From assembly GCF_003841465.1 (NCBI RefSeq), contig NZ_REFZ01000003.1:1-64000 (forward strand): a stretch of DNA of 64,000 nt, in the 5' to 3' direction. The notes under the pieces were generated by a model that was not told the origin of the DNA, searched no databases, and was given only the letters and a program-made list of their open reading frames with translations. The DNA is from Natrarchaeobius oligotrophus. Lineage in GTDB: Archaea; Halobacteriota; Halobacteria; Halobacteriales; Natrialbaceae. Positions 52,681-54,379 of the stretch are shown here, piece by piece; position 1 is the first letter of the stretch; each line of letters begins with the position of its first letter. The position numbers and the translations under genes were made by a program.

Positions 52681-52920
52681 GAAAGCCTCGCGCTTTAGCG
52701 CGGGGATGAATCCGACAATGCATTTCGCAACCCACCGTCGATAGCATCACTGGATATTCCACGTCACAATATCCATGCATTCAAGTAACTATCTCTACAT
52801 TGGTTACGTATGGCGAAACAGGTCGTCACACGCACTTACACTGCTTCCATTCGGAATCAGCAACAGGTGACTGACGACCTCGACGCCCTTGGGTTCGCCG
52901 CCAGTAAACTCTGGAACGTC

Positions 52921-52976
52921 CTCAGAAATCAAAGATTTCTGATGGGCTGCACAAGAGCTCCGCTCTTGTGAGCGTC
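52921..52976. repeat. Double-hairpin insert 1 in tnpB (56 bp)
   Basis: Two perfect hairpins in tandem: TCAGAAATC-AAA-GATTTCTGA (52922-52942) and CACAAGAGC-TCC-GCTCTTGTG (52950-52970), each a nine-base stem with a three-base loop, separated by seven bases. The insert is flanked by GTC on both sides (a possible three-base duplication). Removing 56 bases restores the TnpB frame across SKLWNV-GRWTI. Confidence 0.85.
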
Positions 52977-53093
52977 GGACGGTGGACAATCAGTCGCGTC
53001 TGGGACGAAATCGACTACATCCCAGAACACCAAGAACTCACCGCGTATCTCAAGAGCCACGAACGCTACGATGACCTGCATTCTCAGTCAAGT

Positions 53094-53151
53094 TCGTTCG
53101 AGACGGCGAAGCCGTCTCGTGATGCCAATGAGCTTCGCTCATTGAGCACAG
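53094..53151. repeat. Double-hairpin insert 2 in tnpB (58 bp)
   Basis: The same design as insert 1 with different sequence: CGAGACGGC-GAA-GCCGTCTCG (53099-53119) and CAATGAGC-TTC-GCTCATTG (53126-53144), separated by six bases. Removal of 58 bases restores the frame from HSQSS to RILQELAEAF. The exact borders may differ by one or two bases. The first hairpin is close in sequence to the one in glpC at 29340-29360. Confidence 0.82.
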
Positions 53152-54379
53152 CGAATCCTTCAAGAACTCGCTGAGGCGTTCAACGGCTGGTACGGCAAAC
53201 GACGCAACGGAGACATACGAGCGAACCCGCCCGGCTACCGTAAGCACGGTGACGAACACCCACGAAGCACGGTCACGTTCAAAGCCGCTGGATTCAAACT
53301 CGACACCCAGTACAACCGGGTCAGACTCTCCAAAGGCTCGAATCTGAAAGAATACTGGTCGGACTTCATCCTCTGTGAGTACCAAACTCGTCCCGACGTT
53401 GACCTCTCCACCGTGGAGAACGTTCAGCAAGTCCGAGCGGTCTGGACGGGTGACGAGTGGGAACTCCACTTCGTCTGCAAAGTCGAGATAGAGGTGTCCG
53501 AGTCGCCCGGCGAGAAGACGGTGGGCGTTGACCTCGGTATCAACAACTTCGCTGCGCTCGCCTACGAAGGCGGTCACAGCGAGCTGTACCCACTCAACTG
53601 CTTGAAGCAGGACGACTACTACTTCAGTAAGCGGATTGCACAGTGTGACAACTCGGATTCCGAGCAGGCCACGCGGTTGAATCAGAAGCAATCGACTCGA
53701 CGCACTCACTACTTCCACACGCTCTCCAAGCAGATTGTCCAGCGGTGTGTTGAGGAAGGTGTTGGAACGATCGTAGTGGGTGATCTCTCCGGCATCCGTG
53801 AGGACGAGGAGAACGGCGAGTCGAAGAACTGGGGCAAACACGGTAACCTCGACCTGCACTCATGGGCGTTCGATCGCTTCACTGATCTGCTCGAATACAA
53901 GGCCGAGATGGAAGGTATCACGGTTGAGCAAGTGTCTGAGCGTGATACCTCAAAATCGTGTTCGTGCTGTGGTCGGGAACGCAAAGCCAACCGTGTTGAG
54001 CGCGGGTTGTACGTGTGTGATGAGTGTAAGACGGTGGCGAACGCGGACGTGAACGGTGCTGAGAACATTCGACAGAAAGTATCTCCGAGTCCTGCCGAGG
54101 ATAGGAGTAACGGCTGGTTGGCACAGCCATCGACGTTCCTGTTTGACAAGGAAACTGGTGCGTTCGCACCTCAAGAACAGGTCACGTCGTAAACCACAAT
54201 ATCCCAACGCGGTCGGGAATCTTCGCCCTTCAGGGCGGAGAGGATGTCAAACCAGCCCGTATGACTCGTCGCCGTGAAAGACCGCACGCGAAGACGATCC
54301 CGGGCGACTCGAGCGGGGTCAGAACAGTAGGTTTATCAATCGCACGGCGGAACTGCTATCTAAGATTACTCACCGTCTT

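Follow-up and report, generated by a model that had tools for sequence, protein, structure and literature searches.

Very small double-hairpin elements in IS200/IS605 tnpB genes of haloarchaea

Two double-hairpin inserts in one tnpB gene

The window, the whole 64-kb stretch of Natrarchaeobius oligotrophus DNA analysed here, contains an IS1341-type tnpB gene of the IS200/IS605 group (52810..54192, + strand; Pfam OrfB_IS605 and Cas12f1-like_TNB) that is interrupted twice; its intact homologues (L067-L071, L074 and L075) have uninterrupted frames of 433 aa. Insert 1 (52919..52974, + strand) is a 56-bp element of what we call family A, identified from empty sites, covariation and copies in relatives; it follows AACG and reads TCC[hp]TGGGCTG[hp]AGCG, hp being a hairpin. 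Insert 2 (53094..53148, + strand), a 55-bp element of family B', lies between CAAGT and CAGCG and reads TCGTT[hp]TGATGC[hp]AGCA; it is delimited by a unique empty-site border and occupies a site shared by 12 independent tnpB genes. In stem-loop-stem lengths, insert 1 has 9-3-9 hairpins at 52922..52942 and 52950..52970, spaced by 7 bases, and insert 2 a 9-3-9 hairpin at 53099..53119 and an 8-3-8 hairpin at 53126..53144, spaced by 6 (all + strand). An earlier note on this DNA had described paired hairpins breaking tnpB, and all four are indeed present and perfect. It had also given the inserts as 56-58 bp long, which alignment with insert-free homologues corrects to 56 and 55 bp, and had called their stems unrelated, which is mostly so, the exception being GAGCTYCGCTC, common to the second hairpins of both. 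Across the window these inserts are the sole close pairs of stems of at least 8 bases with 3-base loops, and 40 Markov-randomised windows yielded none. Neither insert has a match in Rfam, whose only hit nearby is sot0042, the omegaRNA/sotRNA at the 3' end of tnpB (54077..54241, + strand), intact here.

Insert-free homologues supply the empty sites, TGGAACG/TCGGACGG for insert 1 (the slash marking the insertion point; TGGAACG/TCGG occurs in at least five homologues) and CAGTCAAGT/CAGCGAGTCC for insert 2. Insert 1 has CGTC at both ends and a border that can be slid by up to 4 bases; for insert 2, alignment with insert-free tnpB homologues allows a single border only and shows no target duplication. 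Joining the flanks without the inserts gives an uninterrupted TnpB frame. The earlier note had expected this, together with intact catalytic residues; RuvC motifs I (GVDLG) and III (NADVNGA) bear it out, and motif II, with GDL and not E, does not. Glutamate (E) is the textbook residue of motif II, and the window's TnpB (53413-54192) reads VVGDL there, the canonical Glu being absent, as it is from most of 51 haloarchaeal TnpBs compared. In sense-strand copies of family A, a GTG close to the right end (at 52968 in the window, and in L250, L256 and L269) is in frame with the downstream TnpB and could, to judge from its placement, act as the start codon of a truncated protein.

Families, conserved structure and distribution

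Judging by sequence comparison, both inserts probably belong to a set of very small, non-autonomous mobile elements that is spread across the haloarchaea. The shared plan is an element of ~45-60 bp with two hairpins, stems of 8-10 bp, loops mostly of 3 nt, a short linker and 1-7 outer bases, linker and outer bases both being conserved. Of 119 related genomes, 73 have a BLAST match to insert 1 and 59 one to insert 2, and a sequence-independent scan of the loci retrieved for adjacent hairpins brought out about 100 distinct double hairpins in several families: family A, CG/TCC[hp]TGGGCTG[hp]AACG/; family B, G/TCGTT[hp]TGATGA[hp]AACCA, with a tnpB variant, B', that ends in AGCA; family C, TCTGCTC[hp]TCGCATGGTC[hp]CTA; family D, ACG/T[hp]GCC[hp]ACG/; and further families beside these. 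The earlier note's proposal of minimal non-autonomous elements consisting of almost nothing but two hairpins has thus gained both further copies and empty sites. Neither of the findings that it had named as counting against itself, a lack of other copies or empty sites and the presence of the same segments in frame in intact relatives, has appeared.

What is conserved in these elements is their structure. Among 28 family A copies, 95.6% of stem cells are paired and 9 of the 18 pairs are altered on both sides, with 52 doubly changed cells against 15.5 in shuffles (0 of 500 shuffles reached the observed value); family B behaves similarly, with 9 of 19 pairs. Outer bases and linkers are near-invariant, inner stems and loops vary, and the stems drift in compensatory pairs.

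The exact family A pattern occurs at 39 loci in 84,980 species genomes, 38 of them in haloarchaeal records. The one remaining record, L259, is a 3.3-kb contig under a Syntrophomonadaceae (bacterial) MAG, with a haloarchaeal-type tnpB that carries a family A element, and is probably mis-binned. Plasmid matches are all haloarchaeal, matches within the phylum are almost confined to the one order, and a phage collection gave no match to the elements. In the 464 kb of the N. oligotrophus genome sampled, there are 7 double hairpins against 1.4 expected, and five of the 7 lie in tnpB, several of the stretches having been chosen for known copies; with so low a density, it is not itself a high-copy host. 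Three copies of insert 2 lie at the tnpB site on three of its contigs. Genome G321, by comparison, has 37 double hairpins in 400 kb against 2 expected (the stretches again partly chosen). Its loci L203-L222 are intergenic mosaics of several families, such as cgtc[ATCAGAACGC..]tggc[TCACGAGAGC..]acgcc beside family B and a GCCGGCGC/GAGGGACC family. In another genome (G082), different double-hairpin elements are strung together, five in L285 (in mixed orientation) and four in L288, each meeting the next at ACG, and at L065:1554-1683 five perfect hairpins stand in a row within 130 bp.

Insertion sites and the fate of TnpB

Exact empty sites are available for about 50 copies, and insertion is precise, with no target duplication wherever the border is unambiguous. 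Borders are unique for families B' and C and ambiguous by 2-4 nt for A and D; a short target duplication is possible in family A, which has CGTC or CG at both ends. Family A copies were found by pattern, with tnpB ignored, and 36 of the 39 lie inside IS200/IS605 sequence at about six sites, which bears out the earlier note's suggestion of a preference for such transposon genes. Six of the 36 are sense and fifteen antisense within tnpB, fourteen are in the tnpB 3' end/omegaRNA of remnants and one is at an IS end, most tnpB assignments resting on a TnpB profile match and a few, together with the fourteen 3'-end cases, on shared flanking sequence. The Rfam sot0042 match spans the element in L254, L148 and L275, and PATE-like remnants elsewhere have their omegaRNA split by a family A copy. 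Further targets are the 3' end of tnpA and the near-terminal palindromes of IS605, and elements also insert at one another's ACG ends, which builds arrays.

The same positions are hit repeatedly. Insert 2 lies at the identical nucleotide in 12 scattered tnpB genes, which on a tree of 51 tnpB genes require 12 independent gains, each carrier being closest to an empty relative. Copies are 100% identical over 71 bases in tnpBs of ~60% protein identity, and within ~6-10 nt of insert 2 the flanking sequence is already that of the recipient's clade. At the insert 1 site, another genome (L044) carries a family D element. The tnpB copies L183 and L184 of N. oligotrophus itself (C1 and C14) belong to different tnpB clades and both contain insert 2; each also has a nonsense change at one shared tryptophan codon, TGG to TGA in one and TGG to TAG in the other.

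The frame is shifted by most insertions in tnpB; two sites are exceptions, with an element length divisible by three and an open TnpB. Pattern matching gave 64 family A copies, 52 of them outside a site that we call T3 and 12 at T3. Of the former, 51 measure 56 bp; of the latter, 11 measure 57 bp and are in frame, and their translation adds 19 residues (such as VHKSDSSCAAHQKSPISED) to an otherwise normal TnpB; in Salinigranum marinum a T3 carrier lies beside an intact tnpA (once). With dN/dS of 0.07-0.26 among T3 carriers, these TnpBs are under purifying selection. At the second in-frame site (T6), a 60-bp copy adds 20 residues. The frame is otherwise open in 10 of 14 insert 2 carriers checked, several carriers having stops or frameshifts, and nonsynonymous to synonymous codon changes number 131:343 on carrier branches against 106:360 on empty sister branches. 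That most frame-shifted tnpBs keep otherwise intact frames, with no clear decay along their branches, is explained by recent insertion.

Mobilisation, rival explanations and known systems

From the precise empty sites and recurrent positions we infer that the elements are mobile. In the model that we favour, to which we give a probability of about 0.6, an element would travel as hairpin-folded, single-stranded DNA that an enzyme acting in trans cuts and rejoins beside a short target, NCG/ in the case of families A and D. This mobiliser would most likely be a transposase of HUH/Y1 type, like those of IS200/IS605 or like TnpA_REP, that recognises the folded hairpins and a few unpaired bases. A preference for IS605 may arise because IS605 DNA passes through a single-stranded stage or because the element rides on the spread of IS605; the elements would work like REP dimers (REPINs) parasitising IS605. 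Transposases of the IS200/IS605 and REP kinds read hairpins together with the tetranucleotides at their foot (PMC6006769), and IS605-type elements insert without duplicating their target (PMC3119063); single-strand HUH chemistry would fit the absent target duplication, the short target, the conserved foot bases and the insertion into transposon DNA. Occurrence in both orientations within tnpB is unexpected of a strictly strand-specific mechanism unless both strands are active. A test of 20 other carrier genomes left 10 without a PF01797 match, several of them high-copy, and this draft genome shows none either, which speaks against a simple 'resident TnpA' model. A search that was not exhaustive found no Y1 gene with ends matching the elements, those near some tnpA genes look like insertions, and inspection by eye gave no convincing pattern of IS608-like base pairing between guide and cleavage site. 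A bolder picture, which we offer tentatively, is of ~55-base, structure-defined selfish DNA that occurs throughout the haloarchaea and homes to a few exact positions in IS200/IS605 tnpB and omegaRNA, is moved by an enzyme other than a resident Y1 TnpA, and has its length tuned to the TnpB frame at tolerated sites.

The earlier note had likened the inserts to PATEs, and in the strict sense they would be PATEs or MITEs of IS200/IS605, that is, fused IS605 ends moved by that element's own TnpA. Such an origin would suit the haloarchaeal host, the unduplicated target, the placing of hairpins close to either end and the short oligonucleotide that precedes the insertion point, and 52-bp, terminal-only PATEs are known in Haloquadratum (PMC3119063). 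We nevertheless think it rather unlikely: the hairpins are mostly 3-5 nt from the borders, near-terminal IS605 palindromes (such as CCCCGCCCTGAAGGGCGGGG) look unlike the element stems when compared by eye at these loci, the elements are themselves inserted into those palindromes, the scanned tnpA loci showed no solo family A half at their ends, and Y1 TnpA goes undetected in many carrier genomes. Transfer from one tnpB copy to another through homologous recombination, or through descent of the IS, with no insertion by the element itself, would account for the copies at T5, whose flanks are alike and which probably travelled with a PATE-like carrier; part of the copies at T3 and T4 may likewise be related by descent, those at T3 from few events. 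As a general explanation it is quite improbable, given that all 12 insert 2 carriers are nearest to an empty relative and that flanks match the recipient clade so close to an insert that is identical across distant tnpBs.

Two further proposals concern what the inserts do to TnpB. TnpB might still be made, the inserts being spliced out of the mRNA or bypassed by ribosomes in the manner of T4 gene 60 and mitochondrial byp elements; the otherwise open frames and the little-different codon changes on carrier and empty branches agree with this, but recent insertion accounts for such frames, several carriers have stops or frameshifts, an in-frame length at T3 would be pointless if the insert were skipped, and the same families occur in non-coding DNA and antisense to tnpB. 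We therefore judge splicing or bypass highly improbable. Least credible of all is a host device for silencing IS605 transposons, as proposed for SMR-A in Haloquadratum and raised by the earlier note. It would explain the strong concentration in IS200/IS605 genes and ends and the frames broken by most tnpB insertions. It is weakened by the in-frame copies at T3 and the second site, where TnpB is intact, selected and once beside an intact tnpA, and by genomes with many copies in intergenic arrays; selfish spread, moreover, explains the pattern with no benefit to the host.

If the model of mobile double-hairpin elements moved in trans is right, they would be among the smallest mobile elements known in archaea. 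As their sequence is largely free to change while two hairpins form, what an HUH-type enzyme reads becomes directly testable, and the repeated return to the same tnpB nucleotides offers a natural system for studying target choice and conflict between a transposon and its parasite. For annotation there is a warning: many tnpB 'pseudogenes' of haloarchaea are genes with no more than a 55-56 bp insert in them, and some TnpBs contain a translated palindromic insert of 19-20 aa.

The open literature, most subscription journals lying outside the scope, gave no description of these haloarchaeal families, and several known systems resemble them in part. Fungal mitochondrial double-hairpin elements (PMC2800124) have the same plan of two adjacent hairpins inserted in genes without target duplication, but are organellar. 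Rickettsia palindromic elements (PMC10969869) are likewise translated in frame within protein genes, as at T3 and T6, but are ~150 bp long and lie in many unrelated genes, whereas the in-frame inserts here are of 57-60 bp and in tnpB only, most copies being out of frame. Nearer to hand are the Haloquadratum elements (PMC3119063), haloarchaeal and without target duplication. SMR-A, whose mobilisation is unknown, also targets IS605-type transposons and their near-terminal palindromes, and insertions into IS605/PATE near-terminal palindromes are found here in L071, L125, L172 and L290; its description sets it apart as ~110 bp with prominent terminal inverted repeats, against units of 53-60 bp here, although abutting inverted pairs of units, ~110 bp, do exist. 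PATEs have IS605-like ends and 20-50 bp from terminus to palindrome, whereas the present elements are double hairpins of 45-60 bp with 1-7 nt, mostly 3-5, and also lie in tnpB coding sequence.

REPINs/BIMEs with RAYT (TnpA_REP) share the arrangement of two inverted hairpin units as one small element and the conserved foot bases, and the family B half-site GTGGTT[hp] resembles the REPIN GT[AG]G tag; they differ in that no RAYT or REPtron association was found here (in a non-exhaustive search) and in that family A is mainly inside IS605 and not intergenic. By analogy, the closest known kind appears to be the CGTC-tagged REP superfamily (Di Nocera et al. 2013, PMC3733652). Its dimers are bacterial, archaea being unnamed in that paper, have CCA tails that the haloarchaeal elements do not, and have loops of 4-5 nt and spacers mostly of 20-100 bp, compared with mostly 3-nt loops and 3-11 bp here; IS605 targeting and recurrent exact sites are unreported there. 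They are alike in having stems of 8-9 bp with variable sequence, in forming head-to-head heterodimers, in lacking a dedicated transposase and in placing some copies in frame inside genes. They carry CGTC (variants TGTC and CCTC) at the outer foot, just as family A begins CGTCC[hp]; the tag marks the left side of nearly all family A copies, their right half having CGTT and family B GTCG/GTGG instead.
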